Made by a program: the position numbers and the translations under genes | Shown here: piece after piece, positions 132-41,112 of the stretch | Layout of the letters: each line of letters starts with the position of its first letter | How positions within the stretch are numbered: the first letter of the stretch is position 1 | From: Pseudomonas alloputida | Lineage (GTDB): Bacteria; Pseudomonadota; Gammaproteobacteria; Pseudomonadales; Pseudomonadaceae | DNA: 64,000 nucleotides | Assembly (NCBI RefSeq): GCF_021283545.2 | Contig: NZ_CP128540.1 | Coordinates: 6,374,597-6,438,596, forward strand | Reading direction: 5' to 3' | Notes under the pieces: generated by a model | Seen by the model: the letters and a program-made list of their open reading frames with translations, nothing else | Database searches by the model: none | What the model was told of the DNA's origin: nothing

Positions 132-1577
132 TCACTCGCCCTTGATACGCACGGCCAGGTTCTTGGTCCTGACGTAGCTGTAGAGCGCCTCCTGGCCTTT
201 TTCCCGTCCGAAGCCCGAGAGCCCGACGCCGCCGAACGGCGTTTCGATGCCACCGGCATACCATTCGTTGACGAACACCTGGCCGGTGCACAGTCGCCGG
301 GCACAGCGCAGGGCGCGATTGAGGTCCTGGGTGAATACGCCGGCCACCAGACCGAACACGGTGCCGTTGGCAATGGCGAGGGCCTCCTCTTCGCTGTCGA
401 AGGGAATTACTGCCAGCACAGGGCCGAAGACTTCAGTCTGGGCTATCTCCATCTGCGCAGTCACATCGCGCAATACGGTTGGCGCCATGTAATGCCCGCT
501 CAGGCCGCTGATGGCCTCGCCGCCGGTTGCGACCACCGCGCCTTGCTGCTGGGCACGTCGGCACAAGGCCTCGATGCCTTCGAGCTGAGCAGCAGAAATC
601 ACGGGTGTGTGGTCAGGGTTGTCCTGGCCCAGGCCCACGGTCAGCCCCTCGGCCATCGCTACCACGTCAGCTACAACCTCGTCGTAGATAGAGCGATGTA
701 CCAGCAAGCGCGACATGGCAGAGCACACCTGGCCGGCATTGAAGAAGATGCCGCTTTTAACGCTGCTGATCAGTTGCTCACGATCGGCATCCGGGAACAC
801 TAGGGCCGCCGACTTCCCGCCCAGCTCCATGACGCTGGGAATCGCGTGTTCGGCGGCACTGCGCAGAATGCTCTGGCCGGTGCCGACGGAACCTGTGAAG
901 ACGATCTGGTCGACATCGCGATGGCCGGCCAGGTAGGCACCCACTTCACGACCACGGCCGCAGATCAGATTGACGGCCCCCTGTGGCAGGCCGGCACGCT
1001 CGATGGCCTGCATCAGCACGCACAGGCCAAGTGGCGACAGTTCCGGCGACTTGATCACTACCGCGTTGCCGGCCGCCAAGGCAGGGGCCAGGGAGCGGGC
1101 GCAGATGGATACCGGGAAATTCCACGGCACGATCTGCAGCGACACGCCCAAGGGGTCGTAGACGGTGAAATCTATGTAGCCGTCGCCCAGCGGAATCGAC
1201 TTCCCTTCGATCTTGTCGGCCATGCCGGCGTAGTATTCGAAGTAGCGCGCGGCCTCGATGAATTCGTCACGGGCATCACGCAGGCTCTTGCCGTTTTCCT
1301 GGCAAAGCACCCACGCCCCTTCGTCGGTGATCGCACGAATCTGCGCGGCAACCTCAAGCAACCAGGTCACCCGCTGCGCAGGACGCACACGGTTCAGAGC
1401 GTTGCTGTCAGCACAGCGCCGAGCCGCCTGCAGGGCGCATTCGGCGTCGGCCACACTGGCTTGGGCGATGGTCGCCACAAGGTCCGTGGTGCCAGGGTTG
1501 TGGATACTCAGGTGCTGCTCACTGTCGGTCCACTGGCCGTCGATGAAGTTTAGCCAGTGCGGAGCTATCGGATGCAT
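132..1577 (-). CDS. NAD(P)-dependent aldehyde dehydrogenase (betaine-aldehyde-dehydrogenase-like)
   Basis: This 481-residue protein has the full aldehyde dehydrogenase fold signature: PWNFP with Asn153, FTGSVGTG in the cofactor site, MELGGKSA with the general base Glu251, and NAGQVCSA with the catalytic Cys285. The frame is open 99 bases further upstream, but ATG at 1577 is preferred because TGAGGTGAT, a good ribosome site, lies just before it, overlapping the stop of the oxygenase gene. The length is normal for the family. Co-transcription with a Rieske oxygenase, and a BCCT transporter next door, suggests it oxidises an aldehyde made from a quaternary or methylated amine. The exact substrate cannot be read from the sequence. 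Confidence 0.88.
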   Translation of the reverse strand: MHPIAPHWLNFIDGQWTDSEQHLSIHNPGTTDLVATIAQASVADAECALQAARRCADSNALNRVRPAQRVTWLLEVAAQIRAITDEGAWVLCQENGKSLRDARDEFIEAARYFEYYAGMADKIEGKSIPLGDGYIDFTVYDPLGVSLQIVPWNFPVSICARSLAPALAAGNAVVIKSPELSPLGLCVLMQAIERAGLPQGAVNLICGRGREVGAYLAGHRDVDQIVFTGSVGTGQSILRSAAEHAIPSVMELGGKSAALVFPDADREQLISSVKSGIFFNAGQVCSAMSRLLVHRSIYDEVVADVVAMAEGLTVGLGQDNPDHTPVISAAQLEGIEALCRRAQQQGAVVATGGEAISGLSGHYMAPTVLRDVTAQMEIAQTEVFGPVLAVIPFDSEEEALAIANGTVFGLVAGVFTQDLNRALRCARRLCTGQVFVNEWYAGGIETPFGGVGLSGFGREKGQEALYSYVRTKNLAVRIKGE

Positions 1578-1587
1578 GATGATCACC

Positions 1588-2778
1588 TCAGGCGCGTTGA
1601 GCACAGTCAAGCAATTGGCGGGCAGCCCACTTGTGGAAGTAGTGAGTCGGCAGATCCATTTCCGGCGAGAACGCACCGCCGCTGTAACCAGGCGAGGAGC
1701 GACCCTTCTGCATGCCTTCGACCGAGGCGATGTCTTCGGCGAACACTACGCGCCAGGATTCCATTACCGCTTTGCGCGAGGCGTCGTAGCGGCTGTCGAG
1801 CGCTTCGTCACCCACGTAGAACAGGCGCAGGTGCTCGATGGTTTTACCCGGCGCCACAGGCTCGAGCATCATGGCGAACGCATGGTCGGCCTGGATGCCC
1901 AGCAGCACATTGGGGAAGAACGCCACGTACTCAGCAGTGCGCAGGCGGTCCTGTGGCCAGGATGGGAAGATCGGCAAATGGGTACCGGCAACGGCCGAGA
2001 GGTTGTAGGCGTGGCTGCCTTGGCCAGCGAATTCCTCGAACATGATGTTGTAGTGGTCTTCCAGGCGCGAGTAGCTGTTCAGGCTCGGGTGCACCCACGG
2101 CAGGTGATAGGCCTCACAGTAGTTCTCGACTGCTAGCTTCCAGTTGCAGTTGACCTCGATGCTCATAGCACCACCGTTCGCTTCACGACGCAGCAGACTC
2201 ATGCCGTCATTGCCCAGGAACTGAGTCCAGCGTTCGGTCAACGGCTGCAGTTGCTCTTCAAGCGCCGGTGCCTCGCCAGACAGGTTGATGAACACCATGT
2301 CCATCCAGATCGTGGTGCGCAGCGCCTTCAGGCCGTGTTTCTCGCATGCGAAACGTTCGTCTTTGTGCTGGTTGATCCCGCCAATGTGCGGAGTGCCTTT
2401 GAGACCTCCGTTCAGGTCGTAAGTCCAGGAGTGGTAGGGGCAGCGGATCACACCCTGCACTTCACCCGCCTGTTGAACCAGTTTCACGCCGCGGTGGCTG
2501 CAGACGTTGTGAAACACCTGCACCAGGCCTTCACGGTTGCGCATCATCAGCAGCGGCAGGCCCATGAAATCGACCGGCTTGACGTAGCTGTTGGTCGGCA
2601 AGTCGCTGGCAAAACCTATACACGCCCAGTTACGCCCCAGCACTTCGTCGCGCTCGAGTTCGAAATAGCGCTGGTCGGTGTAGAACTCGTTGGTCAGGCC
2701 ATGAGCTTCATGGATAGGCGCCAGAACGGTTTCCAAGACGTGGACGGGAATAAGGCGGGAGTCAGTCGATACGGTCAT
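1588..2778 (-). CDS. Rieske-type oxygenase, alpha subunit (carnitine/betaine oxygenase-like)
   Basis: The protein has 396 residues. The Rieske 2Fe-2S motif is C93-x-H95 with C113-x2-H116 (CSHRG and CPYHSW). The mononuclear iron site is in NWKLAVENYCEAYH with H225 and H230. The residue bridging the two centres is Glu222, where ring-hydroxylating dioxygenases normally have Asp. The same Glu is known in CntA-type carnitine oxygenases, which act on quaternary amines. It is transcribed divergently from a BCCT transporter and is followed after 10 bp by an aldehyde dehydrogenase. No flavin reductase gene is visible in the window, so its electron donor is unknown. A role in oxidative demethylation or cleavage of a betaine-like compound is inferred. 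Confidence 0.85.
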   Translation of the reverse strand: MTVSTDSRLIPVHVLETVLAPIHEAHGLTNEFYTDQRYFELERDEVLGRNWACIGFASDLPTNSYVKPVDFMGLPLLMMRNREGLVQVFHNVCSHRGVKLVQQAGEVQGVIRCPYHSWTYDLNGGLKGTPHIGGINQHKDERFACEKHGLKALRTTIWMDMVFINLSGEAPALEEQLQPLTERWTQFLGNDGMSLLRREANGGAMSIEVNCNWKLAVENYCEAYHLPWVHPSLNSYSRLEDHYNIMFEEFAGQGSHAYNLSAVAGTHLPIFPSWPQDRLRTAEYVAFFPNVLLGIQADHAFAMMLEPVAPGKTIEHLRLFYVGDEALDSRYDASRKAVMESWRVVFAEDIASVEGMQKGRSSPGYSGGAFSPEMDLPTHYFHKWAARQLLDCAQRA

Positions 2779-3175
2779 TTTTGTTTTCTCTTGTTAGATG
2801 CACGGCAGGCAATGCCTTGATGCCTGGTGCCAGTTTCAGCAAGAGAAGAAGGGCGCGACAAACGATTTATTTCAACGCTATTTATCAGTTTTTATCATTA
2901 ATGATTTATTCGTCGATGACGGTAGTGGTAGATAATCGTTGATGAACTGCCAGGCTCTGGAATTTTCAGATTAATGACTTTTGGTAATCAATTAATGACT
3001 AGAAATGGTTTGTCGAAGAGCGGGTAATTCTCCCATTTTGATAGGGCCCGAGAGAGCGTACCTCGCCTTGGGCCTGCGGGAAGACCGCCGCCAGGGATCC
3101 GGCACCTGCCTGTGGCAGCGGCTCTACCCAAACCGTGACATCAAACCCTTGAACAAAAACAATAGGGGATAACCA
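2779..3175. promoter_or_regulatory. divergent promoter region between oxygenase and BCCT transporter
   Basis: These 397 bp separate two divergently read genes and contain no convincing ORF. The half nearest the oxygenase is very A+T rich and holds a perfect 12-bp palindrome, ATCATTAATGAT at 2894-2905, a plausible operator. The AGGGGATAACC just before 3176 supplies the ribosome site for the transporter. Promoter elements were not assigned. Confidence 0.5.
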
Positions 3176-4879
3176 ATGCGTGCCGAATCTGGCCTGCTCA
3201 AAGGCCTCAATCCCACCGTGACGATCTGGTCGTTACTGGCCGTAGTAGCCTTTGTGCTGTTTTGCGCCCTGTTTGCCGAACATGCAGCAGCGGTTTTTCA
3301 ACGTGCATCTGACTTCATCCTGCAGAATTTCAAATGGTTCTACCTGATTTCCGTCACGGGTGTGCTGGGGCTACTGATCTATCTGATGTGCAGCAAGTTT
3401 GGGTCTATGAAGCTTGGGCGAGACGACGACAAACCCGAGTTCAGCTTCGGCTCCTGGATCGCCATGTTGTTCAGTGGCGGCATGGGCATCGGACTGATCT
3501 TCTGGTCGGTTGCCGAACCCATGTGGCATTACGCGGGCAACCCGTTCGCCACCGGCCTCACCGACGAAGCCGCCACCACAGCTATGCGAATTACCCTATT
3601 CCACTGGGGCCTGCATCCCTGGGCTATTTTTACCATCGTTGGCCTGGGCCTTGCCTACTTTGCCTATCGCAAGGGCTTGCCGCTGAGCATGCGCTCGATC
3701 CTTTACCCGCTGATTGGTGAGCGCATCTATGGGCCCATCGGACATGTGGTGGACATCCTTGCCGTGGTGATTACCGCGTTCGGTGTATCCCAGTCGCTGG
3801 GCCTGGGCGTGGTGCAAATGAACACCGGGCTGAGCCAGGTGTTTGACCTGCCCATCAGCCTGGGGGTGCAGATCACCTTGATCGTGCTCATTACCCTCGT
3901 TACTACCGTATCGGTGATGGCCGGCGTGTCGCGTGGCATGAAGCGCCTTTCGGAATGGAATATGCTGTTGTCGGTGGTGCTGGTGGTGTTGATCCTGCTG
4001 CTGGGGCCAACCCGCTACATCATCAACCTGATGTTGGAGAGCACCGGCGACTACGCCAGCCATGTAGTGGGTCTGAGCTTTTGGAGCGATACCCAGAAGG
4101 ACAGCGGCTGGCAGAACTGGTGGACGGCGTTCTACTGGCCGTGGTGGATGACCTGGGGCCCGTTTGTCGGTCTGTTCATTGCGCGAATTTCCAAAGGCCG
4201 CAGCATCCGTGAACTGATCGCCGGCGCGCTGTTGGTACCCACCCTGGTGACGATCATCTGGATGTCGGTGTTCGGTGGTACCGCGCTCAAGGCTGAGCAG
4301 CTCGATCGTCAGCAGCACGCAGAACTGGTTGCCAGTGGTGAGCTGCAGGGCGACAAGGCCAAGTACGAAGGTGGCACGGTATTGCTGGCGACCAAGCAGG
4401 AAACCACCGCTGCCATGTTCACCCTGCTGCACAAGATCGACGCCGGTACGTTGGGCAAGGTGCTGAGCGTGCTGGTCTGTATCCTGCTGGCGACGTACTT
4501 CATCACCTCGGCCGACTCCGGCACCCAGGTGCTGTGTACGTTGAACTCCATGGGCAGCGCCAACCCGCCGCAGAGTATCCGCCTGCTCTGGTGCATCCTG
4601 GAAGGTGCTATAGCCATGGCTCTGCTGATGGCGGGGGGGCTCAAGGCGATCCAGATGGCGAGCATTGCGGCGGGATTGCCGATTGCGGGGTTCATCCTGC
4701 TGATTAGTTACACCCTGATGCGCAGCTTGCGCCAGGAGATGGCTGACGGCCTGCTTGATACGCCGCCGGGTGGGCGCCTTCCTATACCTGGGATTCACCC
4801 GCAAGGCATCACGCCGGTGGCTGGGCCCTTGGCCTGCGAGGGGCTTGATATGGGGCTGACAGCGAAGAAAGCCAGCTAA
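3176..4879 (+). CDS. BCCT-family choline/carnitine/betaine transporter
   Basis: This 567-residue inner-membrane protein has about twelve hydrophobic segments and BCCT hallmarks: the GGMGIGLIFWSVAEP region, HWGLHPWAIF, and the Trp-rich substrate segment FYWPWWMTWGPFVGLFIARISKGRSIRE. The family imports trimethylammonium compounds using sodium or proton gradients. The cytoplasmic C-terminus is short, so it lacks the long regulatory tail of the osmosensing BetP/BetT type. Its divergent position from the Rieske oxygenase and aldehyde dehydrogenase suggests it feeds that pathway. A strong hairpin terminator follows the stop. Confidence 0.92.
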   Translation: MRAESGLLKGLNPTVTIWSLLAVVAFVLFCALFAEHAAAVFQRASDFILQNFKWFYLISVTGVLGLLIYLMCSKFGSMKLGRDDDKPEFSFGSWIAMLFSGGMGIGLIFWSVAEPMWHYAGNPFATGLTDEAATTAMRITLFHWGLHPWAIFTIVGLGLAYFAYRKGLPLSMRSILYPLIGERIYGPIGHVVDILAVVITAFGVSQSLGLGVVQMNTGLSQVFDLPISLGVQITLIVLITLVTTVSVMAGVSRGMKRLSEWNMLLSVVLVVLILLLGPTRYIINLMLESTGDYASHVVGLSFWSDTQKDSGWQNWWTAFYWPWWMTWGPFVGLFIARISKGRSIRELIAGALLVPTLVTIIWMSVFGGTALKAEQLDRQQHAELVASGELQGDKAKYEGGTVLLATKQETTAAMFTLLHKIDAGTLGKVLSVLVCILLATYFITSADSGTQVLCTLNSMGSANPPQSIRLLWCILEGAIAMALLMAGGLKAIQMASIAAGLPIAGFILLISYTLMRSLRQEMADGLLDTPPGGRLPIPGIHPQGITPVAGPLACEGLDMGLTAKKAS

Positions 4880-4898
4880 CCTAAAGCCACCCTGGAAG

Positions 4899-4935
4899 AC
4901 ACAAGACCGACAGCCATCAGCTGTCGGTCTTGTGT
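4899..4935. terminator. bidirectional rho-independent terminator
   Basis: A perfect 15-bp stem (4899-4913 with 4921-4935) and a 7-nt loop are followed by TTTT on the plus strand. It lies between the convergent BCCT transporter and LysR genes and probably ends both transcripts. Confidence 0.85.
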
Positions 4936-4945
4936 TTTGGGCAGG

Positions 4946-5869
4946 CTATTTCTGCACCGAAGGCAGGGCCATCAACCAGTCCCGGAACAGCCGCACGCTT
5001 TCACGAGGACCACGCTCGGTGGACGACTCCAGCAGGCAGAACTTGGCGTCGGTCTGGAGTACCACATCGTTGGGCTTGACCAGCGCACCGGTGCTCAACG
5101 CATCGTCCACCAGGTTGCCCCAGGCCAGGGCCACGCCCTGGCCACTGATCGCCGACTGGATCAGCATACCGTAGCTGTTGATATTGACGCGATGCTTGGG
5201 GGTCATGGGCTCGTATCCCAGGCGCTTGAACCATTCGGGCCAACCTACCCAGTCGCGCTGGGAGTCTTCAAGCCAGAGCCAGGTACACGACGACAACCCT
5301 TCGATGCTGCTCAGTTGCGGATGCCTGGCCAGATAGGCCGGGCTGCACACCAGGAAGATTTCTTCCGAGAACAGCGGCGTGACAGCCATGTCCTTGGGCG
5401 GTGGGTTGCAGTAGTAAAGCGCCAGGTCGCTGTCGAGCCTGGCGTAATCCTTCACATGATCGTGGGCGATGATCCGCAGGTCGATGTTTTCATGGGCACT
5501 CTGGAATTCCGACACCTTGGGCAGTAACCACAGCGACGCCATGGCGGTACTGGTGGCAACGGTGACTTGTTGGTTGCCTTGCCACTGGCGTATATCGCCG
5601 GTGGCGCGGGCCAGGTGAAGCATGCATTCACGCACCGTTTCGTAATACTGCGCGCCGGTGGGGGTCAGGGACATGCTACGGGTGGTACGGGTGAATAGTG
5701 CCTTGCCCAGGTAGTCCTCAAGAAGGCGAACCTGACGGCTAATTGCACCCTGGGTAACATTCAATTCCTTGGCGGCAAGGGTAAAGCTCAAGTGGCGTGC
5801 CGCAGACTCAAACGCATGAAGACTGTTGAGCGGCGGAAGAGGCTGGATTTTCACAGGCAGGGGTTCCAC
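4946..5869 (-). CDS. LysR-family transcriptional regulator (GcvA-like)
   Basis: The 307-residue product begins with a winged-helix DNA-binding domain at about residues 12-70 (LNSLHAFESAARHLSFTLAA, then ELNVTQGAISRQVRLLE). It continues with a periplasmic-binding-protein-like effector domain. The PPLNSLHAFE opening is typical of the GcvA/AmpR branch. The start is uncertain: the frame opens at GTG 5869, another GTG lies at 5854, and neither has a strong ribosome site. It is convergent with the BCCT gene. It may regulate the amine cluster or something else; nothing in the sequence decides this. Confidence 0.88.
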   Translation of the reverse strand: MEPLPVKIQPLPPLNSLHAFESAARHLSFTLAAKELNVTQGAISRQVRLLEDYLGKALFTRTTRSMSLTPTGAQYYETVRECMLHLARATGDIRQWQGNQQVTVATSTAMASLWLLPKVSEFQSAHENIDLRIIAHDHVKDYARLDSDLALYYCNPPPKDMAVTPLFSEEIFLVCSPAYLARHPQLSSIEGLSSCTWLWLEDSQRDWVGWPEWFKRLGYEPMTPKHRVNINSYGMLIQSAISGQGVALAWGNLVDDALSTGALVKPNDVVLQTDAKFCLLESSTERGPRESVRLFRDWLMALPSVQK

Positions 5870-6328
5870 TCATTTTTATTATCATCCGCTCACTGGAGTG
5901 GCGGTTTCCTCCCTAACGCATTCAGGGCAGAACGAAGCAACCGGTTCACTATACTGCACATTTGCAGAAAGATATTCGTTCCCTGAATAGGCAATATCCC
6001 AATCACTTTTAATGACATTGAACGCGGCGTGCATTGTGTGACAGTGAACAAGCCGATTGAAGCCATAGCACCGTGGTCACCCGAGTTCAGCAGCGAGCAT
6101 GTGGAACTCGGAGCTCTTGATCACATGGCTTGGGGCCAGGATTTCGAAGGTTGCTGCCTTGGGATCAGCCCAGGAGAGCAGCAAATTCCTTCTCATGTAA
6201 TGACAGAAAAGGTTCATCAGTCTGAATTGGAAGGGGCATAGGCGAACGCCAGACCAAGGGGGAGACGGGACGCGAGGGAGACGGTTGAAACCGTCCGATG
6301 AAGGGAAACGAGCGCTTCCCCTCTACCG
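5870..6328. other. intergenic stretch between LysR gene and the Tn7-like insertion site
   Basis: No convincing gene is seen. An open frame at 6029-6241 has no recognisable domain and no good ribosome site. Two small hairpins occur near the right side: GACGGTTGAAACCGTC around 6280-6296 and GGGAA...TTCCC around 6303-6320. Because a solo right end of an older element begins at 6329, part of this stretch could be residue of an earlier insertion rather than ancestral chromosome. Confidence 0.4.
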
Positions 6329-6373
6329 GCGACAGTTTTAATTGTTCGACGACTGTTTTAATTCAACGAAACC
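6329..6373 (-). repeat. solo right end of an older, diverged Tn7-like element
   Basis: Two abutting 20-bp units, 6329-6348 and 6349-6368, resemble the binding repeats of the resident element but differ in sequence (cores GCGACAGTTTTAATTG and CGACTGTTTTAATTC). They point in the orientation expected for a right end. Unit count, 20-bp spacing and distance to the AAGTT duplication (5 bp here, 6 bp at 43021-43026) match the resident right end. This is best explained as the right end of an element that used the same attachment site earlier. No left end or tns genes of that element are visible in the window. Confidence 0.6.
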
Positions 6374-6378
6374 AAGTT
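6374..6378. repeat. target-site duplication, left copy (AAGTT)
   Basis: AAGTT immediately precedes the left terminus of the element and is repeated at 43027-43031 immediately after the right terminus. Five base pairs is the duplication length known for Tn7 transposition. Confidence 0.75.
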
Positions 6379-6515
6379 GGATTTAGAGAATTAAAACTGT
6401 CGCTAGAGGGTCCCGTCTTTCGCGGCCTGCAGCCATTTGGAGAGGAAACGCAAAACTGTCGCAATCACCCAAAACGCCGGTTCAGACTGATTCGCTAGAG
6501 AATTAAAACTGTCGC
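6379..6515 (+). repeat. transposon left end with three spaced transposase-binding repeats
   Basis: Exact copies of a 20-bp repeat lie at 6384-6403 and 6496-6515, and a degenerate copy ending CAAAACTGTCGC lies at about 6443-6462. Spacing of roughly 55-60 bp between separated sites is like the left end of Tn7, which has three separated TnsB sites. All three face inward. Confidence 0.75.
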
Positions 6516-27889: not shown

Positions 27890-28306
27890 GTAGCCTTATG
27901 CGATCTAACAGCTCAAGCCCCAGACCTGATACATGCGGTGCGATACAGCGCTGATCGGGTCACTCTTCGCTGTTCCCCTTCCAGCTTTGCCTTTGCCCAC
28001 AGCAGACGTCGGAGATGAAACTGCTCGGCGGACTCACAAACCTGCTCCAGTGCTCTCGCACAAGGCTTTGATCTGGCCATCTTTGCTTGAATGGCTGACC
28101 CGTGGCAGGGCGTTGGCCGTGTTTTCTTCGTGCGTGTTGAGCCCAATGCGAGCGCGATCCACCATCCACAGGCCGCTACTGCCGCGCGCCAATTCTATGC
28201 CGGCACTACTCGTCAAAAATTAGGTGAGTGCCTACCCGGCAGGCAATGGGCTACTATCGAGCCCTATCTCTATCCGAAAGGGTTAGCTCCGTTGCCAGGG
28301 AATTGC
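27890..28306. other. stretch without a recognised gene
   Basis: Several overlapping frames are open on both strands, none with a domain or ribosome site. The frame of the downstream STAS-HATPase gene is open back to 28091, but that extension has no similarity to the domain. Confidence 0.4.
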
Positions 28307-29326
28307 ATGCAGGCCATCGATATTGAAAACGCGATCGTTCTTCCTTGGGGGCTTGGCTCAAGATCGCCCCATGACCTGTTTTCTGTGTGCTCAGAAATCA
28401 TTAACTGCCCTGGCGACATCGTTTTAGACGCTAGCAACCTCTCGTATATCGATCCGTTAGGGATGGCCACGCTGCGGGCGTTGTTTGAGAACCAGTTGGC
28501 CCAGAAGCGAGTTTCGATGCAGTTTCTGAGCAGAGACCTGACCTCCTACCTAGCCAGGATGGATTTTTTCAAGGACATTGATGTAGAGGGTGTTGATCTA
28601 TCGGGAGTAGGACGTCGAAACGACCGAAGCACCTCGTTGGTGGAAATCACCAAAATCAGCGAACACCATCAAGCAGAGGCTGCAGCGTCTCGCCTCGCTA
28701 GGGCTATCACGGGAAGGTTGACTCAGTCGGACCCGGACGCTCCAGTCGACGAGTACACGGGACGGAATGAGTTTGACTCCTACCGGGGCCCTTTGGAGTA
28801 TTCGCTCAAGGAGCTATTGGAAAACTCGCTTACTCACGCCCGCAGAGAGGGACGTGGTGACGCCGCCGTTTGGCTGACCTGTCAGTTTTATCCAAAATTG
28901 AACCTTGTACGCATGGCGATCGTCGATAATGGGTGTGGGTTTCTCGCGACACTGAGGAATCACCCTGAGCTTCATGACCGCACGCATTTGCACGCGATCG
29001 AGGCGGCACTCAAACCGCGAGTGAGCTGCAACCGGGGTGCGATGGCCGAGATCCTGGGTAGCGAGAACCAAGGTATCGGGTTAACAACTACCGCAAAAAT
29101 TGCAGACGCGGCGGGCGGTGGTTTGATCATCGTGAGCGGCAATGGCATACATGACACAAAGCGTCGGCAGTCTCAGGAGCTGCATGATGCGCTGTGGAAT
29201 GGTGTATCGATCGCGTTTAGCTGTACCCGTGAGCTGCTGCCCACCATTTCGATCAGTGACTTGCTGCCGAAGGACGATGCGGGACAGGTTGACGACGATC
29301 TCGACCTAGATCTGAATTTCCGCTAG
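28307..29326 (+). CDS. STAS-HATPase fusion protein, possible partner-switch regulator
   Basis: The 339-residue protein begins with a STAS-like domain (about 1-100: GDIVLDASNLSYIDPLGMATLRALFE). A linker follows, then a GHKL ATPase domain at about 155-300. The ATPase has an N box (LKELLENSLTHA), G1 (IVDNGCGF) and G2 (QGIGLTTTAKIADAAGGG). No His-kinase dimerisation domain, receiver or membrane segment is present, so it is cytosolic and unlike ordinary two-component kinases. An Asp-rich tail ends DDDLDLDLNFR. ATG 28307 is preceded by CAGGGA. A STAS-like DUF4325 gene follows 123 bp later. A switch resembling anti-sigma/anti-anti-sigma pairs is inferred; its target is unknown. Confidence 0.72.
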   Translation: MQAIDIENAIVLPWGLGSRSPHDLFSVCSEIINCPGDIVLDASNLSYIDPLGMATLRALFENQLAQKRVSMQFLSRDLTSYLARMDFFKDIDVEGVDLSGVGRRNDRSTSLVEITKISEHHQAEAAASRLARAITGRLTQSDPDAPVDEYTGRNEFDSYRGPLEYSLKELLENSLTHARREGRGDAAVWLTCQFYPKLNLVRMAIVDNGCGFLATLRNHPELHDRTHLHAIEAALKPRVSCNRGAMAEILGSENQGIGLTTTAKIADAAGGGLIIVSGNGIHDTKRRQSQELHDALWNGVSIAFSCTRELLPTISISDLLPKDDAGQVDDDLDLDLNFR

Positions 29327-30072: not shown

Positions 30073-30861
30073 TTAAGTAAAACCATCAAGCTGCAACGGA
30101 CCTGCAACTCCTGCGGCTTGAAGCAAAGCGGGTAATACCACCCCTGCAGGCCCAACGAGCATTATCTCTTCCGCCCCGTCCATCCCCACGTCGTCAAGGT
30201 TCACATGGATCACGGTTGCCCCGGCCGCCAGAGCCATATCTGGAATACCGGCTGCCGGCATGACTACGCCAGATGTACCCACCGAAATCAGCAAGTCACA
30301 GGCTTCCACAAGCCTTACTGCTGAACGCCACGCATCCTCTGGAAGATTCTCTCTGAACCAGACCACCCCAGGGCGCAACCTTCCGTTGCATCGAGTGCAT
30401 CGCGGGGGCTCGATCATCTGTCCCGCCGGGGGAACCGCCAGTTGGTCTGGTGATAACTCTGCTGGCCGGTGACATCCAAAGCATTTCACGTCCATCAAGC
30501 TGCCATGGAGGTGTATCACCGGACTGGAGCCGGCTCGTTCATGCAGATCATCGATGTTCTGGGTAACGACAGATACGTTCCAGCCAGCATCAGCTATCCG
30601 TGGAATAGATAGATGAGCCAAGTTAGGTTTGGCCTGGCCAACCTGCTGTCGACGCCAGAGATACCAGCTCCAGACGAGAGCTGGATTCTCGCGAAAGGCG
30701 TTCGCTGTTTCGAGACGCTGAGGGTCATGCTTCGCCCAGAGCCCTGTCAGTTTGTCGCGGAAGGTCGGAATTCCGCTGTCAGCAGAGATACCTGCACCCG
30801 TGAAAAAAACGACCCTCTTGGACCTGCGCAAAGCCTCAGCAGCTCTTCGCAAATTGCTCAT
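30073..30861 (-). CDS. Sir2-family NAD-dependent protein deacylase (CobB-like)
   Basis: The 262-residue sirtuin has GAGISADSGIPTFRD (residues 22-36), the catalytic TQNIDDLHERAG and HLHGS with the active-site His. A zinc-binding four-Cys module (CFGCH and CTRC) and GTSGVVMPA for NAD follow. It removes acyl groups from lysines using NAD. ATG 30861 follows GAGGTG by 8 bases. It stands alone on the minus strand between two plus-strand cargo units, so it may be an accessory rather than part of a system. Some Sir2 proteins act in phage defence by NAD depletion, but this one looks like the short deacylase class. Confidence 0.88.
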   Translation of the reverse strand: MSNLRRAAEALRRSKRVVFFTGAGISADSGIPTFRDKLTGLWAKHDPQRLETANAFRENPALVWSWYLWRRQQVGQAKPNLAHLSIPRIADAGWNVSVVTQNIDDLHERAGSSPVIHLHGSLMDVKCFGCHRPAELSPDQLAVPPAGQMIEPPRCTRCNGRLRPGVVWFRENLPEDAWRSAVRLVEACDLLISVGTSGVVMPAAGIPDMALAAGATVIHVNLDDVGMDGAEEIMLVGPAGVVLPALLQAAGVAGPLQLDGFT

Positions 30862-31068
30862 TGGACACACCTCAGCCCCGCAGCAGGGACACCCTTGCAG
30901 TAAACACGGGAAAAGCCGCACATCCTAGCTAAAGCACTCGCGTTTGATCGGAAAACCAAGCGTTGAGTGCAGGGTGCCGCATACTGATCTCACCGATTTT
31001 AGGAAAGCTCCAATGGATTTCAGCTTCCCGATCTACAGCTAGCCGTAGCCCCATCGCGGGAGGTGCTT

Positions 31069-32450: not shown

Positions 32451-32481
32451 AAAGCCGAGCTGGACATGCTACTTCGGCTTT
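32451..32481. terminator. terminator between convergent zinc-ribbon gene and tnsC
   Basis: AAAGCCGA pairs with TCGGCTTT around a 15-nt loop and is followed by TTTAG on the plus strand. It overlaps the end of tnsC. Confidence 0.6.
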
Positions 32482-33815
32482 TTAGGGGGTGAGGACGGGG
32501 ACTGTGAGTCCGCATATCGATGGAAGGCTAGTGCTAGGTCTTCGTCGGTCGCCTTTGGAAGCGGTTTACGACGGGGCGCTTTGGCCGGAGCTTTCTCATC
32601 CGGTTGGGTAATCTGCCTAAGTAGGGAGCGCTCAGTCTCGGTAGCCGACGAATCGAAGACCTTTGTCTGTACACGCTGATCACGGTCTGTCCTGTTAAAG
32701 CTCACCACGTTCGACTTGTATTCAACAGGTAAGTCAAATGGACAGCGCAGGTCCAAATGCCCCCCTTGATTGCCTTTGCTAATGGCCAGCAATTGCAACT
32801 CTTCGACCTCTTTCGAGCTGGTGGTATACGCGCTCGATCTGTAGGCCTTGTGGAGGTCGTCGACTTCAATCCGGTTTCTGCCGGCGACTCGGCATTCGAT
32901 GTAGGCAAGCTTCAGCAGTTGTACGACAAGCCGCTTGATACCAAAAGTGGAACGGTAAAGCTCAGCCGCAAATTCATCCTTTCCTGAACTGATACGGCCG
33001 TCACTGAGCCTCATGCACTCGCCTACGTACTCTGCCCAATCCTGGCTCCTTGGATCCTCGGGCAGCATTACCCTGGGTTGAGAAAGCAGCCTCTGCTTGT
33101 CCTCACTGTTGCGACGAAACAGCTTGTGCCCGAGGCTATAGTTGGACACAAAAATCGTCGGCACTCCGATGGCTACCATCGTCAATAGTATGTCGGTCAC
33201 TTTGGACGCGCCCATGCCGGTGTTGATGTGCTGCGTCTCATCCAGGACAACTGTTAAAACCCCGTCCCGGTTGGCGCGACGGCGACACTCCACAAGCAGT
33301 TTTGCCAGGTTACCACCCCGCCCCTCATGACCACTTCCATGAATGAAGTCTAGTAGGAGCTGTTTACCACTCGCTTTACCGCGGGCGCTCGCATACCACA
33401 TCGAGGCAAGCTCTATGCTGCCCTCGAACAGGTCACAAGTCAGTTCTACCGGCGGGGGCATCGCTCTTCGAAGAGCAGCAATCGTCTGGCTTTTACCGAC
33501 CCCAGCTAGGCCGGTAAGGCAAATCGGTGAAGCTTCCACGTCGGGCGGATTAAAGATCCTTCCGGCGTACTCTGCTTCACTCCTGAAATTTTTGAGGTTG
33601 TGCAAATATGCCAAACCGATCATTTCTTGAATAAAGGCAAGCGAGAACTGGTTGGGGAGGTACATCTCTTTGAGCCGCTCAGCGAGTAGCTCAGCACCGA
33701 GCAAGGGAGGAAGCGCCTCCAAATCCTTTATCGGATCTGGTCGAACAGTCACTCGACTACGGATGGATTCGATGTCCATATAACCATCGAAGCGAGCTTC
33801 AATGATTCTGTTCAT
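32469..33815 (-). CDS. tnsC: TnsC, AAA+ ATPase regulator of transposition
   Basis: The 448-residue ATPase has Walker A GLAGVGKSQT at 102-111, Walker B VLTVVLDETQH at 187-197 and a sensor region FVSNYSLGHKL. This is the pattern of TnsC/TniB proteins, which link target selectors (TnsD) to the TnsAB transposase. Its C-terminus is Lys/Pro-rich, where Tn7 TnsC contacts TnsA. Its ATG overlaps the tnsB stop by four bases. With tnsB interrupted by an IS, its expression may depend on read-through or on an IS promoter. Confidence 0.9.
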   Translation of the reverse strand: MNRIIEARFDGYMDIESIRSRVTVRPDPIKDLEALPPLLGAELLAERLKEMYLPNQFSLAFIQEMIGLAYLHNLKNFRSEAEYAGRIFNPPDVEASPICLTGLAGVGKSQTIAALRRAMPPPVELTCDLFEGSIELASMWYASARGKASGKQLLLDFIHGSGHEGRGGNLAKLLVECRRRANRDGVLTVVLDETQHINTGMGASKVTDILLTMVAIGVPTIFVSNYSLGHKLFRRNSEDKQRLLSQPRVMLPEDPRSQDWAEYVGECMRLSDGRISSGKDEFAAELYRSTFGIKRLVVQLLKLAYIECRVAGRNRIEVDDLHKAYRSSAYTTSSKEVEELQLLAISKGNQGGHLDLRCPFDLPVEYKSNVVSFNRTDRDQRVQTKVFDSSATETERSLLRQITQPDEKAPAKAPRRKPLPKATDEDLALAFHRYADSQSPSSPPKKPK

Positions 33816-35149
33816 TTTTTAGCGCCCCTGAATCGATTGAAATCGTCCGTGTCGCGCTGGGCAGCACCTCCTTTCGAGGGCCGCCCAAATTTTCTCTCGC
33901 CAGCATCCCATTCTTCGCCTGTATTCTGTTTGAATCTGTCTTCGAAATGCTGCTCATGCGCAGGGCGCTCGTCTCTGAGATCAGCAGCAGCTCCTCGACG
34001 TACCTGATCAATGTCTTGAAGATCACGCAAGGAAATATCGACGGAGCTTTGCGGACTACGCGATGGCCGCATGAAGTCTAACTGGTATAAAACCCCTTTA
34101 ACTTCTATCCATATATGACGAACACACATGACCAAAACATATACGGAGGTGTTGATGACACCTTGCCGGGCCACCAAATCAAAAATTCCTGTTTCTTCCA
34201 ATTCACGGGATCGGTATTTTCGCCCGTAAAAATAGACACCGTCCTTTCTTATCGCAGCTGGTCGTACATCCAGAAACTGCCTCACAGCCGTTTCGAAGGG
34301 GACCCCAATCGAGGAATCTCGTCCACGCATACTCCAATAGCAGTAAATGTCATGTGGGGTAGGCTTAATGCCGGCCAGAATCATCTCCTCGTCCATACGC
34401 AGGCCAGCGTCAGAGGTATGGTTATCCTTCAGGACCCGCACAATCTCCCGCTTGGCCATCTGTACGAAATCGAGCTTGCTGTGAAAATAGGTCGGCTGCC
34501 CGAGGGTTTTCTTGTCTCTCGGGTGTGAGGATTCGACAGTAGCCTTGGACTGACCTGAGTAGATTGGCGTCAGATCTACCGACTTTAACCAGTGAATCTC
34601 TGGATCTACTTCGTACCCTGCAGCAGGTCCTCTATCAAGCACCATAGAGCCCGACAAACCAGCACTCGGCCATTCTTCGGCACTGATTTCAATACCGTAC
34701 TGCTCGCAGAATTTAACTTTGTCACATGCCATGCAGTAGATTGCCATGCGATAAGCGGCCATATTTTCTTTGCCTTCCGAAAAGCCAATGCCAAGCACCA
34801 TCCCTGACAACGCACAAACAGCACGGACGACACAAAAGCTGTCAACTGCACTGCCTTCAGTCAACCCAGATAGTTTCTCGGAAATATTATATCCGTCAAA
34901 CTCAATTCGCTGACTCACATTAATTAGGTTGTCGGCAAAACTTCCCTCTGAACCAGATTGAGCACGAGCCCGGTGCGCTCCTTTCAAAGCGATACGGAGC
35001 TGTTTTGCGCTGATTAGTTTAGATATCCAATACCTAAACTGTGGGAATGAAGGGAATGGCATGCCTTTAGGATGTCTGTATTCAACAGCCTCTCCCGCCA
35101 GCTTGTATGCATTGCAGCCAAACTCTCCTATAAGGATGTCGCTGTAGAT

Positions 35150-35157
35150 CTTATTTT
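35150..35157. repeat. 8-bp target duplication of the IS66-family element, left copy
   Basis: CTTATTTT here is repeated exactly at 37199-37206. Eight base pairs is the characteristic duplication of IS66-family elements. Confidence 0.93.
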
Positions 35158-35242
35158 GTAAGGGATCCATCATCCCCACATTCCAACCGTCCACCTGATT
35201 CCCGATGCTGTGCTCCCGATTTCTTTCTGGAGCCAGCCCGCC

Positions 35243-35602
35243 ATGATGCGCCCCGACAGCAAAGTCGAAAAAGTCTACCTCTACCCCAAGCCCGTGGACT
35301 TTCGAAAGTCCATCGACGGCCTCACTGCCCTGGTCGAACTGGACATCAAGGTCGCCGTGTTCGACCCGGTACTTTTCGTCTTCCTCAATAAAGCCCGTAA
35401 CCGCATCAAGGTGTTGTATTGGGAGCGCAACGGCTTCTGCCTTTGGCTCAAGCGCCTCGAAGCCGAGCGTTTCAAAACTTCACCCGACGCGACCGACGAA
35501 GCTATCGTACTGACCGTCCAGGAACTGAATTGGCTACTCGACGGTTTCGATCTCTGGCGCAACCGTCCGCATCAGGTTTTGACTCCTCGTTTCGTCGCCT
35601 GA
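35243..35602 (+). CDS. tnpB: IS66-family accessory protein TnpB
   Basis: The 119-residue protein has the IS66 Orf2 signature: VYLYPKPVDFRKSIDGLTALVE, FVFLNKARNRIKVLYWERNGFCLWLKRLE. TnpB is needed for IS66 transposition although its biochemical role is unclear. ATG 35243 is preceded by GGAG. It is followed after 18 bp by tnpC. Confidence 0.92.
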   Translation: MMRPDSKVEKVYLYPKPVDFRKSIDGLTALVELDIKVAVFDPVLFVFLNKARNRIKVLYWERNGFCLWLKRLEAERFKTSPDATDEAIVLTVQELNWLLDGFDLWRNRPHQVLTPRFVA

Positions 35603-35620
35603 CCGGGTATAATCCGGGCC

Positions 35621-37153
35621 ATGATTTCAGTGCCCGATAACCTTCCTGACGACCCTGCCGCGCTCAAACTACTGCTTGCGCAGTTGTTGGCCGAGCGCAC
35701 GGTCGACAAAGGTCAGATCGTCGACCTTAAAGAACAGGTCAAGCTGCTGCGTGACCGATTATTCAATCGCAAGTCCGAGCAAACCGTCGAGTCCAACACG
35801 CCCCAACTGGCGTTGTTCAATGAACCCGAAAGTCAGTGGGTACCTACCGCTGATGATGCCGACGAAGAAGTTGTTGCGCCAAGCAAGCAGCGCGGCAAAC
35901 GCAAGCCACTGTCGGCTGACCTGCCACGCATTGAAGTCATTCATGACTTGCCCGAGCACGAACTGACTTGCGCCTGTGGTTGCCGCAAACACGTGGTTGG
36001 CGAGCAAACCAGCGAACAACTCGACATCGTGCCGATGCAGATCCGTGTGCTTAAACACGTACGCAAAATCTATGGCTGCCGTGGCTGCGAAACCGCGCCG
36101 GTCACCGCTGACAAGCCGGCCCAATTGATTGAAAAGAGCATGGCCAGTCCCAGCGTGCTGGCGATGTTGCTAACCACCAAGTACGTCGATGGCCTGCCGC
36201 TGCACCGCTTCGAAACGGTGCTGAACCGACATGGTATCGAGATCCCCCGGCAAACCCTGGCCCGCTGGGTCATCCAGTGCAGCGAACACTTTCAGCCACT
36301 GCTGAACCTGATGCGTGACCGCCTGCTGGAAAGCCCGGTGATCCATTGCGATGAAACTCGCGTGCAGGTGCTCAAAGAGCCGGATCGTGATCCGACCAGT
36401 CAATCCTGGATGTGGGTGCAGGCCAGTGGCCCGCCTGATCGACAAGTCGTGCTGTTCGATTACACCACCAGCCGCGCGCAGGAGGTGCCGCTGCGCCTGC
36501 TGGAGGGCTATCGCGGTTACGTGATGACCGATGATTACGCCGGTTACAACGCGTTGGCGCTACAGCCGGGCGTTGAACGACTGGCGTGCATGGCGCATGT
36601 CCGGCGTAAATTCGTCGAAGCGCAGAAGGTGCAGCCTAAGGGCAAGAGCGGTCGCGCCGATGTTGCGCTGACGATGATCAACAAACTGTATGGCATCGAA
36701 CGCGACCTCAAGGATGCCAGCGATGAACAGCGATTCATCGGTCGTCAGGAACGAAGCCTGCCGATCCTTGAGCAGTTGAAAAGTTGGCTCGACAAGACGC
36801 ACTCACAGGTGACACCGCAAAGCGTACTGGGCAAGGCGGTGCTTTACCTGGCAAACAACTGGAACCGCCTGGAGCGGTATGTCGAGGCGGGCCACCTGCC
36901 GATCGACAACAACCTGGCAGAGCGGGCCATAAAGCCGTTTGTGATCGGGCGCAAAGCTTGGCTGTTCAGTGACACGCCCAAGGGAGCCACGGCTAGCGCG
37001 CAGATCTACAGCTTGGTCGAAACCGCCAAGGTCAACGGCCAAGAGCCCTATACGTGGCTGCGCCACGTCCTGGAGCGACTGCCGCACGCCTCATCGGTAG
37101 CAGACTACGAAGCGCTGCTGCCATGGAACTGTTCGCCAGAGATGCCACGGTAA
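35621..37153 (+). CDS. tnpC: IS66-family transposase TnpC
   Basis: The 510-residue transposase has an N-terminal leucine-rich coil, a zinc-binding segment (CACGC ... YGCRGCE) and the DDE core. The core is visible as [21 protein letters not shown] and [20 protein letters not shown]. The reading frame is complete, so the IS may still be active and could in principle excise or move. The stop is 45 bp from the right IS end. Confidence 0.94.
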
Positions 37154-37198
37154 CTTTGGCTTCCACCTTGTGGTAGGTGGGGTTCATGGATCGGTTAC

Positions 37199-37206
37199 CT
37201 TATTTT
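37199..37206. repeat. 8-bp target duplication of the IS66-family element, right copy
   Basis: CTTATTTT matches 35150-35157 exactly. Confidence 0.93.
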
Positions 37207-37869
37207 GAGTCTTGTGGGGGGATTTATTGGCGAGGAACCCCTTTAGCAACCTCTGCTGCATTTCTGCATCGCAACGATAACCATGCCTTTTTCCCTTGCG
37301 AGAGGGCCGACCAAGCTTCGTCATACGCCCTGGCCCTTCTCGATTCCATGCCCCAATACGGTGGAGAGGTGGCAGCAAGGACCACTTAGTCCGACCAAAC
37401 ACCATGTATGAGTAGAACCAGAGCCTTGTCCTGGCTGCGTTCTGATGGGGTCGTTGTGCTTTGGCGTAGGCGTTAATTAGGGCGTCAGGATCATCGCTCG
37501 CGAGGATTTCATTTTGGCGAGCAACCAAGCCAGATATCGCAGCAAAACGCTTGTCCACCTTCTGCTCGTAGCTTTCTTTCTTTGAAGCTCGCCGATACTC
37601 CAGATGCTCGATGGCAACGCCCTCGATGGGTGTAAGCCATGGAGGACTTGAATCGGCCGATCCATCCTCAACCAGCCACCCATTCTCGACTGCCTCCTCA
37701 AAATCAAACTGGCTCAGTTGGATCAGGTGGGTGCTGATGTGTTTGCCATCGTCTTTGAATTCGACCAAGCGAACACGGTTTTGCCGGCCATCGCTGACCA
37801 ATAGGTGATATACATCGCCTTGTGGAAGGTTACGAAACCCCTCGGGGGCTATGATTCGCGAGCCTGCCC

Positions 37870-38832
37870 TCATGGCGCGGCCTCTTCAAAAAGCGAGCCG
37901 AACTCCTGGAGCAGATCGCATCCACCGGTAATCAACGGGCGATCGATCAAGATAGGTTCGCTGAAGTCGACTTGAAGCTTTCGGTCCCAAATCAGTTGGT
38001 AGATCTTGGCTATGAACTGGTCACGGAAGCCCCACCGAGCACCGTATTCAATCGCCACGTAGGCCACGGGCTTCCCGACCTGAACAGCCTCAGCAATCGC
38101 ACCGACAAAGTCTTGAAGCAGATTCGGTTCAAGTGAAAAATCAAGACCGTGCATACCAAACAACAGGTCTAGATTCGCCTGAATAGTGGGCGATATCAGA
38201 TCTCGGGAAACCTCTACGGTCCGGATGCCGGCGCTGGCGTAGTATCGGCGCTCGAGCTCTCCCCGAAGCTCGGCATGGTCGCGGTCCTTCTTTTGTTGAA
38301 CAGGGGTCTTCGCAGACGTGCTTCGACGTTCTCGAAATTCCTGGGCCTGGTCCTTGACCGTCCAGTTGATGGCAAACGGTTCTCCTCGACAGTTGAAGAG
38401 GAAGAGCAGGAGGTCGCCTTGGTACGGGTACGGGACCCAGCCCCTGTTTCCGCTCGCGTCTTCGACTACGATTTCATGATGTTTGAAACCGATCTCTCTT
38501 GCGATATCCATGGTGCCGCGGAGAGGGGGCGGGAATGTGCCCTTCGTCAATGGGTGCCCTTTCAGTGGGTGCCCTGTGTTCACTGGCCAAAGCATCTTCT
38601 GCTCGTGCAGCTCAAAAAGCTCGGGGTGGAAGAGAGCTAATTGAGCAAACACCTTCTCTGGGTGGGAAAGGAGATGAATCGTGCGCCCCAGCTTTCGGCT
38701 ATGCAGTCTGCTAATGCGAGAGCCTTTAGGTGCCTCTCGTGGAACCGCCAGCGTGGACGGTACATATTCCTGGCCCCATTCGAACCGGGCCTGGCGTTTC
38801 ATGATCAGGTCAAATCGTTCCTGCGGTTTCAT
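37870..38832 (-). CDS. tnsA: TnsA, endonuclease subunit of the heteromeric transposase
   Basis: The 320-residue protein matches TnsA in layout: an N-terminal restriction-enzyme-like fold with catalytic Glu (71 or 74 in ELFELHEQKM), Asp140 (PYQGDLLLF) and Lys160 (INWTVKDQ). A C-terminal winged-helix part follows. TnsA makes the 5-prime cuts that let Tn7 move by cut-and-paste. ATG 38832 is chosen because the upstream extension (to 39069) is unlike the family and GGAAAG precedes 38832. The stop overlaps the tnsB start by ATGA. It is divergent from tnsD. Confidence 0.85.
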   Translation of the reverse strand: MKPQERFDLIMKRQARFEWGQEYVPSTLAVPREAPKGSRISRLHSRKLGRTIHLLSHPEKVFAQLALFHPELFELHEQKMLWPVNTGHPLKGHPLTKGTFPPPLRGTMDIAREIGFKHHEIVVEDASGNRGWVPYPYQGDLLLFLFNCRGEPFAINWTVKDQAQEFRERRSTSAKTPVQQKKDRDHAELRGELERRYYASAGIRTVEVSRDLISPTIQANLDLLFGMHGLDFSLEPNLLQDFVGAIAEAVQVGKPVAYVAIEYGARWGFRDQFIAKIYQLIWDRKLQVDFSEPILIDRPLITGGCDLLQEFGSLFEEAAP

Positions 38833-39513
38833 CCAAGCTTTCCAATCTAACCAGGATTTGTTGCTGAAGGCGCACGTTGGGGATAACAACGCGCACACCG
38901 GCAAAACCCTTATCCTGCGGGCAGGTAACCGCGTTTCCGGTTGTGGATAACGCGGAGATTCTTGTGGATGAGCGAATCCGTGCGAAACTTGACGTTTCAC
39001 ATGCAAGGGATAGACAATGGAGGAGTCAGGTGCCTTTTCTGACTTATCCACAAGGGCCCAAGGTCGCACTTGGGCCTTTGTCTATCTCATTTTCAGCGCT
39101 CTCGTTTAGCTAGCTGTCGTCTGAATTTCTATCGTTAGGTCTACCTTAGGCGTCTCCGCCGATTGTGATCTTGCCCATGCTCACGAACCCTTCTTTCAGG
39201 GTTCGCTGACGCAGCGCTTTTGGGCTACGAGCTTGGTTAACTCAATATGTTAACGCTGGAAATTCCTAGCTGACAACAAGTTTGCGCGCAAACCACACAT
39301 AACTTTCAAATACTCCCACCTAGCAAATTTCCGCCTATACGAAGCGCTCACAGGATTCCGGTCCATGCCAGGACCATGCTGCCTTGGTCCGCCCCTGAGA
39401 ACCGCCGAAGACGCTTCAAAACTGAAAATTCTAACCAGCTCTAGACCGATAATTTATTGGACTTTAAGAGTCCAAGACAATGTATTAGATTAATATTCTT
39501 TGAGGCATATCTC
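38833..39513. promoter_or_regulatory. divergent tnsA/tnsD control region
   Basis: These 681 bp contain no convincing gene. They hold an imperfect hairpin (AAGGGCCCAAG with CTTGGGCCTT at about 39052-39078), a perfect 7-bp hairpin CGAACCC...GGGTTCG at 39184-39205, and GTTAAC-N7-GTTAAC at 39236-39254. The last is a perfect 19-bp dyad that could be an operator. TGAGG at 39501 is the ribosome site for tnsD. Compared with the island the last 250 bp are A+T rich. Confidence 0.5.
39236..39254. promoter_or_regulatory. GTTAAC-N7-GTTAAC dyad, candidate operator
   Basis: Each half is itself palindromic, so the 19-bp unit is both a direct and an inverted repeat. It lies 260 bp before tnsD and 404 bp before tnsA. 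No regulator gene is obvious in the module, so a Tns protein or host factor would be the binder. Confidence 0.35.
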
Positions 39514-41112
39514 ATGAACCTCAAAGGCAAGCATTTACCCTTTTTACACTGGCTCCCAGATGAATGTCTTTACAGCGTATGCAGCCGCCAGCATATTCTT
39601 TGGGGCAACCCGTCACCTACAGATACACTGAGTTTTCTTTTTGGAAGCGGGTATAAAAAATTTGCACACGACTTTCCAAGTAACCTGAGTCTATTAATCG
39701 AGTCTGCAAAGTCTACTTGGGGAACCCCAGAGGAATTGATATCTGAACACACCATTGCACCCATTTTCTTTCCTTTCCAATCTTCTGATCACATTCAGGA
39801 ACTGAAACAAGCATTGATGGGGCCCAAAATTGGATCTATGAAGTATAGGCTTGGACTTGTGACTGGCCGCTTCGGTGGTGCGCACCCTCTTAAGGCGTGT
39901 GTTAAATGCATGGCAACTGACCGATCAGTTCTGGGCGCCACATATTGGCACTTATCTCACCAGCTTCCTGGTGTTACGACTTGTCCAGTGCATGGAGTCT
40001 TGCTCTCGGAGTCAATCGAGAACAGGCAGTGGTCCAGGGGTTTTCAGTGGCTTCTTCCTGATGAATTAGCCCTCAGCGTAACTGATCAATCGGCCATAGA
40101 TCCTGCAACCTTCGAAGCACTACAAAACATGTCTGAGTTAGCGGTGGACCTGTGGAAATCAGGCTCCTCCTGCCAGTTTGATAGCACTACAGTCGCTAAC
40201 GTTTACAAGGAAGCCTTCAGTAATTTTGGCCGCTCCCAGAAGTCTCGCGATGCTGCTGCCGACCGCTTTGCTGAGCTCTGTGCAATGCTCAAACAGCACC
40301 CGCCTTTCACCGCTTTGCCAACCACGCGCAAGTGTGCAATAGGGTTCATTTCTCAAATGACCCGTAAGCCCCGTGGTTACTGCCATCCGTTGAAGCATCT
40401 GACCCTGATTTGGTGGCTATTCGGGAGCTTAGAATCATTCGTTAAGGCCTATCAACATGCCGCGAACCAGCAGAAACTTCCAGGGACTAGCCCCTCAGTG
40501 AAGCTTAACTTAAATAACTCTTTCGTTAATCCTATTTCAGCTCAAATAAGGAGAACTGGAGCCCCGAAACCCAAAAAGCTATTTAATGACTTGAAGGAGA
40601 AAATCCTCCGGGAACTGATGACTGGCTCTAGCAAAAAAGAGGTCTGTGTTAACTTTGAGATATCTATGAGCACGGTAAATCGGCTACTACGGCTTAACCC
40701 GAGTGTCGACGAGAAGATAAAAATATACTTTAAACTCAAGAAACTTGAGGAACAGCGTACCTTGTGGCGCTGCGCCGTGGACAAATCGCCCTTCGCCAGC
40801 GCGAATGTAATTAAGCGGTCAGTACCCAACGTCTATGCATGGCTCTACAGAAACGATCAGTCTTGGTTACTTTCGCAAACAGGCTCACTACCAAGTGGCA
40901 GGGCCGGCAACCATGTCGCAATTGACTGGGATGCCCGGGATGAGAATTTGTGTACCTTGATTAAGAAGGTACTGGTAACGTCGACCACCGAACCCAGAAA
41001 AATCCGAAAACGTGACTTGTACCAAATGGTACCTAGTCTTTTTTCTTCGCTTGAGCAGAAGTCGCACTATCCAAAGACGAGGCAGCTCGTCTCCGAAATA
41101 TCTCAGCAGTAG
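39514..41112 (+). CDS. tnsD: TnsD, attTn7-targeting protein (TniQ family)
   Basis: The 532-residue protein has an N-terminal TniQ domain with LPFLHWLPDECLYSVCSRQH and the zinc-binding set C129-x2-C132 with C157-x2-H160 (YWHLSHQLPGVTTCPVHG). A C-terminal region with a likely helix-turn-helix (SKKEVCVNFEISMSTVNRLLRL) follows. Tn7 TnsD, 508 residues, binds the 3-prime end of glmS and recruits TnsC. ATG 39514 has TGAGG 8 bases before it; the frame is open 57 bases earlier. It is read away from tnsABC, unlike the single-direction tnsABCDE of Tn7, and has lower G+C than the copper cargo. Confidence 0.85.
   Translation: MNLKGKHLPFLHWLPDECLYSVCSRQHILWGNPSPTDTLSFLFGSGYKKFAHDFPSNLSLLIESAKSTWGTPEELISEHTIAPIFFPFQSSDHIQELKQALMGPKIGSMKYRLGLVTGRFGGAHPLKACVKCMATDRSVLGATYWHLSHQLPGVTTCPVHGVLLSESIENRQWSRGFQWLLPDELALSVTDQSAIDPATFEALQNMSELAVDLWKSGSSCQFDSTTVANVYKEAFSNFGRSQKSRDAAADRFAELCAMLKQHPPFTALPTTRKCAIGFISQMTRKPRGYCHPLKHLTLIWWLFGSLESFVKAYQHAANQQKLPGTSPSVKLNLNNSFVNPISAQIRRTGAPKPKKLFNDLKEKILRELMTGSSKKEVCVNFEISMSTVNRLLRLNPSVDEKIKIYFKLKKLEEQRTLWRCAVDKSPFASANVIKRSVPNVYAWLYRNDQSWLLSQTGSLPSGRAGNHVAIDWDARDENLCTLIKKVLVTSTTEPRKIRKRDLYQMVPSLFSSLEQKSHYPKTRQLVSEISQQ

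Follow-up and report, generated by a model that had tools for sequence, protein, structure and literature searches.

The landing site beside glmS in Pseudomonas alloputida has been filled at least twice. In the window (the whole stretch of 64,000 nucleotides that was analysed), the right end of an older Tn7-like element, now a fossil, directly precedes the target duplication of a resident Tn7-like element, and a decaying tniQ from a lineage other than the resident's lies inside that end. An account with an older element, a later resident, deletions and a probable cargo left behind explains this arrangement best, and we assign to it as a whole a probability of about 0.92. Comparisons were made with 398 Pseudomonas genomes, one per species; genomes and loci compared are designated by G and L numbers, respectively, and negative coordinates are positions to the left of the window. 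The relevant features are collected in Table 1.

Table 1. Coordinates of the remains of the older element, of the resident element and of the neighbouring genes.
Feature	Positions	Strand	Basis or remark
Catabolic cluster, right part: aldehyde dehydrogenase, Rieske oxygenase, BCCT transporter, LysR regulator	132-5869		
Decayed 5' third of tniQ, older element	5882-6239	-	TniQ profile matches, frames, alignment
G+C-rich stretch resembling a hairpin, on the inner side of the fossil right end	6296-6328	+	By eye
Fossil right end, older Tn7-like element	6329-6373	+	Direct reading; other Pseudomonas elements with the same architecture
AAGTT, left copy of the resident's target duplication	6374-6378		Equals 43027-43031
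Resident left end	6379-6515	+	Three spaced repeats: 6384-6403, 6443-6462 (weaker), 6496-6515
Resident tnsC (AAA ATPase)	32469-33815	-	Pfam AAA_22; name by position
Resident tnsB, two halves	33812-37873	-	Named by position
Resident tnsA	37870-39069	-	Named by position; 60-81% identical to the gene in the same place in G002 and G007
Resident tnsD	39457-41112	+	Pfam TnsD and TniQ, above cut-offs
Resident tniQ	41697-42878	-	Pfam TniQ; orientation and place relative to the right end as in the fossil tniQ
Resident right end	42981-43026	+	Two abutting repeats (42981-43020) and AAATCA (6 bp)
AAGTT, right copy of the duplication	43027-43031		20 bp past the glmS stop
glmS	43052-44887	-	Pfam SIS and GATase domains, 611 aa

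The resident element and the right end beside it

According to two published accounts, Tn7 and Tn7-like elements that use attTn7 have packed repeats at the right end, spaced repeats at the left end and a 5-bp target duplication, and they insert about 20 bp beyond the glmS stop with the right end towards glmS (PMC2918618, PMC11406308). The resident element, which spans 6379-43026, presents both ends, a 5-bp duplication and a right end about 20 bp beyond glmS, as well as tnsD and a second gene of the TniQ family. In the register used here the target duplication fits at 5/5 bases in the window, in G349 and in G383, while in G240 and G081 a full fit is obtained only after a shift of one base (read by eye). 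No Pfam or NCBIfam match was obtained for tnsA or for either half of tnsB, and these genes were named from their position and from relatives. An IS66-family element (genes at 35210-37153) splits tnsB and is accompanied by a 9-bp repeat, CTTATTTTG, at 35150 and 37199; in L133 a single open segment of 693 aa covers both halves. The resident is probably immobile by itself. Much of its cargo (7085-27326) serves the handling of copper or metals, with CopB, a multicopper oxidase, a CusS-type sensor, a response regulator, an outer membrane efflux protein and a metal P-type ATPase. At 28091-29326 a GHKL-type ATPase protein gave a weak match to DrmA in PADLOC (E 5e-5), and a PADLOC scan of eight proteins recognised zero defence systems.

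Immediately to the left of AAGTT, two repeats of 20 bp each abut head to tail, repeat 1 at 6329-6348 (GCGACAGTTTTAATTGTTCG) and repeat 2 at 6349-6368 (ACGACTGTTTTAATTCAACG). This is the closely packed array of transposase-type repeats expected of a Tn7-like right end. Direct reading confirmed the original prediction on the presence of this pair and on its coordinates, which were exact, and the spacing to AAGTT that it gave was also correct, namely 5 bp in the fossil (AAACC, 6369-6373) and 6 bp in the resident. Moreover, the fossil repeats had been described as related to, but different from, those of the resident, and they proved identical to its commonest repeat at 16/20 and 14/20 positions. 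The core of the two repeats scored 28/30, against 19/30 or less across 60 Markov sequences of 7 kb. Since the right ends of relatives terminate in ..CCA or ..TCA, the A at 6374 may be the last base of the old end itself, and in that case the old insertion would have been one base nearer to glmS than the resident's. The same overlap between the final A of a right end and the first base of the duplication was read by eye in G383. The fossil right end is now 36.7 kb from glmS, and if the resident is mentally removed it would fall within a base of the resident's site.

The two-repeat pattern with 20-bp spacing was detected at 16 places in 13 of the 398 genomes (own genome included), and its reversed-pattern control at 0. 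Eleven of these places adjoin glmS and three adjoin a left end, as read by eye; the latter are the fossil end described here and those of G022 and G059, with the G059 left end carrying repeats of another type. As for the remaining places, the one in G086 adjoins neither, and another, in G022, duplicates a right end next to an N of the assembly. The G086 place is located 21.5 kb from glmS, which in that genome has another element's tnsC-like and tniQ-like genes beside it (L210). A scan of named Pseudomonas contigs returned 16 stretches, 10 of which probably derive from genomes already in the two-repeat set, and plasmid records yielded a single match, 39 bases long, from Pseudomonas koreensis. 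An end pattern after that of E. coli Tn7 had zero matches; the Pseudomonas family has its own repeats. Around the fossil end, 6309-6364 resembles the G059 right end (82%), and comparable stretches were noticed by eye in L037 and L043. The original prediction had also looked for the same right end on a different, complete Tn7-like element, and in this respect it was disappointed, as none with exactly this right end was found among the 398 genomes. Just past glmS in L127, L129, L134 and L135, repeats of another type occur in three copies (TGTGTCAATCTTTATT-like, by eye), and several Tn7-like families seem to use the glmS site.

Remains of the older element

A TniQ-family selector gene is expected inside the right end of a Tn7-like element, and the older element retains one in decayed form. 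A TniQ profile of 13 proteins (12 from other loci plus the resident's), run on 303 stop-to-stop segments between -4814 and 6378, matched only two segments, 5885-6076 (E 5e-20) and 6080-6322 (E 1e-3), which are side by side and collinear. The gene shows a frame change in its N-terminal part and an in-frame stop at 6077-6079, and it is cut off near 5885, the copy stopping near residue 113 of about 390. Its start lies 90 bp inside its own right-end repeats, compared to 103 bp for the resident tniQ, and the same place is occupied by tniQ in the resident, G221, G022 and G352.

The larger piece of the fossil tniQ is nearest to the TniQ of G221 (60% identity over 57 aa), while the resident TniQ, at 38.6%, ranks 11th of 13 by score. 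The smaller piece has clear matches to three proteins only, again with G221 as the best (45% over 40 aa). The fossil thus belongs to a different element and is not a copy of the resident's end. The G221 element carries tnsABCD and tniQ, and it is oriented with the right end at glmS. No TniQ closer to the fossil one was found, but the right-end repeats of this element are of another type than the fossil's.

The broken tniQ of another lineage inside the end, together with the same junction geometry in two other genomes, supports the claim of an earlier occupation by another Tn7-like element. The original prediction had named as a refutation empty-site strains with 6329-6373 as ordinary chromosome, and in a genus-wide search 5870-6378 was not seen as such. 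Among the matches listed for the 398 genomes (one per species, with scores for two candidates per genome and with the own genome missing from the list), there were three places, all of them Tn7-like parts, i.e., the G221 tniQ and the G059 and G349 right ends. When 5600-6372 was compared with 57 relatives, the LysR part alone was matched.

The other parts expected of the older element are missing. Searching -4999 to 6373 by tblastn with the resident's proteins revealed no tns genes besides the tniQ piece, and as tnsABC of the older element was not found there, we call it a remnant and not an element. Neither its matching left end nor its target duplication was found: the exact core pattern gave zero matches in the whole genome beyond the five of the window, and the 120 kb preceding the window, when scanned loosely, contained zero near-exact or clustered cores.

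The catabolic cluster and the probable order of insertion

To the left of the fossil, a catabolic cluster extends past the left edge of the window towards -4814, with 10.7 kb separating lpdA from the tniQ remnant. From left to right the order is two gene pieces, MFS, cupin, FAD oxidase, FAD reductase, aldehyde dehydrogenase, Rieske oxygenase, BCCT, LysR and the tniQ remnant, of which the gene pieces and the genes from MFS to FAD reductase were named by eye. Among the relatives compared, the best synteny was found with G081 (roughly 84-99% at the amino acid level for the longer genes up to lpdA), and the DNA similarity to this genome (90% over 585 bp) ends at -4814, 24 bp past the lpdA stop. 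In G081 lpdA is followed by about 180-200 bp and then by a Tn7-like element. About 180 bp of this G081 interval are missing here, which indicates that the left border has been reworked. At this border (L147 15274-15749, window -4726 to -4251) overlapping transketolase-like and amino-acid-permease-like pieces were read by eye. Such gene pieces could mark the deletion that took the old left end. Another element in G081, 6 kb in size (L143 10713-16830), has both ends, but its tniQ match covers only 32 residues and tns matches are missing; it is probably non-autonomous.

We believe that the catabolic cluster is likely to be the surviving cargo of the older element. It may also be argued that the older element was real but that the cluster (-4814 to 5869) was never its cargo, being chromosomal or acquired by another route, and that one deletion proceeded from inside tniQ outwards and took the remainder of the element together with its left end. 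Consistent with this, the old left end was not found between the cluster and lpdA, truncated gene pieces sit at the left border, and the cluster is found elsewhere: G172 has all eight genes in the same order (66-88% at the amino acid level), G264 has it nearly whole with the Rieske and BCCT genes matched only partly, and the BCCT or LysR part has matches in 70 of the 398 genomes, own included. However, the cluster was not found in the 39 glmS-side stretches of relatives, where its eight genes matched only a distant FAD reductase (26%) and a distant LysR (23%) at E 1e-8. In addition, G081 has its Tn7-like element within about 200 bp after lpdA, and cargo is the simplest source for the 10.7 kb between native DNA and the right end. 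We therefore regard a cluster that was never cargo as rather unlikely.

Returning to the two successive insertions, a Tn7-like element of another lineage than the resident's would have inserted first downstream of glmS, with its right end facing glmS. The copper-resistance resident would later have inserted at the same spot chosen by TnsD, on the glmS side of the old right end, with duplication of AAGTT; it is the place where TnsD acts that suggests this order of events. The older element, at its present distance from glmS, would have been stripped of tnsABC and of its left end by deletions. What survives is the old right end, the decaying 5' third of tniQ and, probably, the catabolic cluster as cargo. 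The old right end, the tniQ remnant with its separate lineage, the junction and the duplication of the resident are established by the sequence; the order of insertion, the deletions and the cargo status are deduced. Alternatively, both elements may have arrived as one block from another strain through homologous recombination at glmS, with neither insertion having occurred in this lineage. This scenario is compatible with all the data, but the same junction appeared in 0 of the 398 genomes, which at one per species is a thin sample, and we find it improbable.

Junctions in other genomes and the use of the glmS site

Among the loci surveyed for junctions, and with two substitutions per core allowed, a right end and a left end of this repeat family face each other here, in G383 and in G022, with the facing cores 25, 25, and 26 nt apart, respectively. 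Two further right ends, in G059 and in P. abietaniphila (L115), face repeats of another type. Ten outer left ends were seen in total. Three adjoin right-end repeats, namely the one here and the other two right-left junctions, and in the remaining seven such repeats are absent from the 45-60 nt outside, which accords with the earlier view that the resident left end does not reach 6329. The idea that the fossil repeats belong to a resident left end extending to that position can draw on their adjoining that end and sharing its core, but this distribution, the tniQ beyond the repeats and the AAGTT in between, duplicated at the right border, make it hardly tenable, and we take it as refuted unless the AAGTT match is due to chance (1 in 1024 for five bases). 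Just as implausible is a duplicated or rearranged copy of the resident's right end. Repeat 1 shares its 15 core bases with the resident, but the repeats deviate in their outer parts, and the tniQ piece scores higher against the TniQ of 10 other elements than against the resident's; in view of this tniQ lineage we consider the copy refuted.

The displaced right ends of G383 and G059 resemble the fossil one, in that the left end of another element follows directly and tns genes are missing nearby. They also differ from it. The 15 kb examined on the left side of the G383 end contained zero tns or tniQ genes. In G059 the left end that follows has repeats of another type, and 71 kb separate the right end from glmS. 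G059 retains only a tniQ stub of 61 residues, beside a SIR2 gene. A SIR2-family gene is also located near the resident tns genes (30073-30921), and it is 75% identical over 163 aa to the G059 gene (L196 18342-18830). Its presence in both settings suggests that SIR2 may travel with this Tn7-like family. A fourth of the ten outer left ends, that of G096, adjoins a stretch that by eye resembles the interior of a right end whose repeats are missing. Finally, the G022 junction is doubtful in the assembly, as the repeats lie 146 bp from the start of the contig, the first 192 bases of which are the same as in the other right end. On contig C16 of this genome (L046/L200 near 15555) a right end occurs twice, 86 bp apart and with N between, probably as an assembly artefact from tandem right ends. 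A tie between the inner element of the G022 tandem (L146) and the cluster described here was considered and rejected, the BCCT-like (26%) and LysR-like (39%) proteins being too distant.

With the attTn7-type Tn7 (TnsABC+D), the resident shares the end architecture, the 5-bp duplication, the distance to glmS and the orientation of the right end. The older element differs from Tn7 in being a remnant, composed of a right end and a tniQ piece, for which the left end and tnsABC were not found, and from prototypic Tn7 in having two abutting 20-bp repeats instead of four overlapping 22-bp sites. Serial insertion at glmS, as reportedly put forward by Parks and Peters, builds islands. Adjacent or internal insertions of Tn7-like elements, resulting in multiple left and right ends, are suggested by Benler et al. 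(2021; PMC8649781). The present case is alike in that one element inserted beside an existing one, and it differs in that the earlier of the two is reduced to a fossil end and the junction is readable at the level of single bases. Given that adjacent Tn7-like insertion is already in print, we consider this a well-preserved example of a known event and not a new kind. What is added here is the readable junction, the tniQ fossil of another lineage, the probable domesticated cargo and two repeats that did not exclude a newcomer.

The last point touches on target immunity, which is described for Tn7 in PMC11406308 and PMC12452197; in the latter, Tn7 ends are cited as lowering insertion nearby, up to 190 kb away. 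We tentatively propose, and hold it somewhat less probable than its opposite, that in this Pseudomonas family leftover repeats at glmS give no protection, that a relative with near-identical repeats can land a few bases away and displace the old element outwards, and that the flank is a one-way conveyor that fixes cargo. If this is true, transposon cargo, in this case an entire catabolic cluster, is continually converted into ordinary fixed genes. The locus offers a base-level record of one attachment site used twice in succession and shows what remains of a displaced element, i.e., its right end, a tniQ stub and probable cargo. Other such fossils can be searched for by means of right-end repeats that lie 25-26 nt from an opposing left end. 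Furthermore, since the old end retains two near-intact repeats, target immunity between related elements becomes testable.
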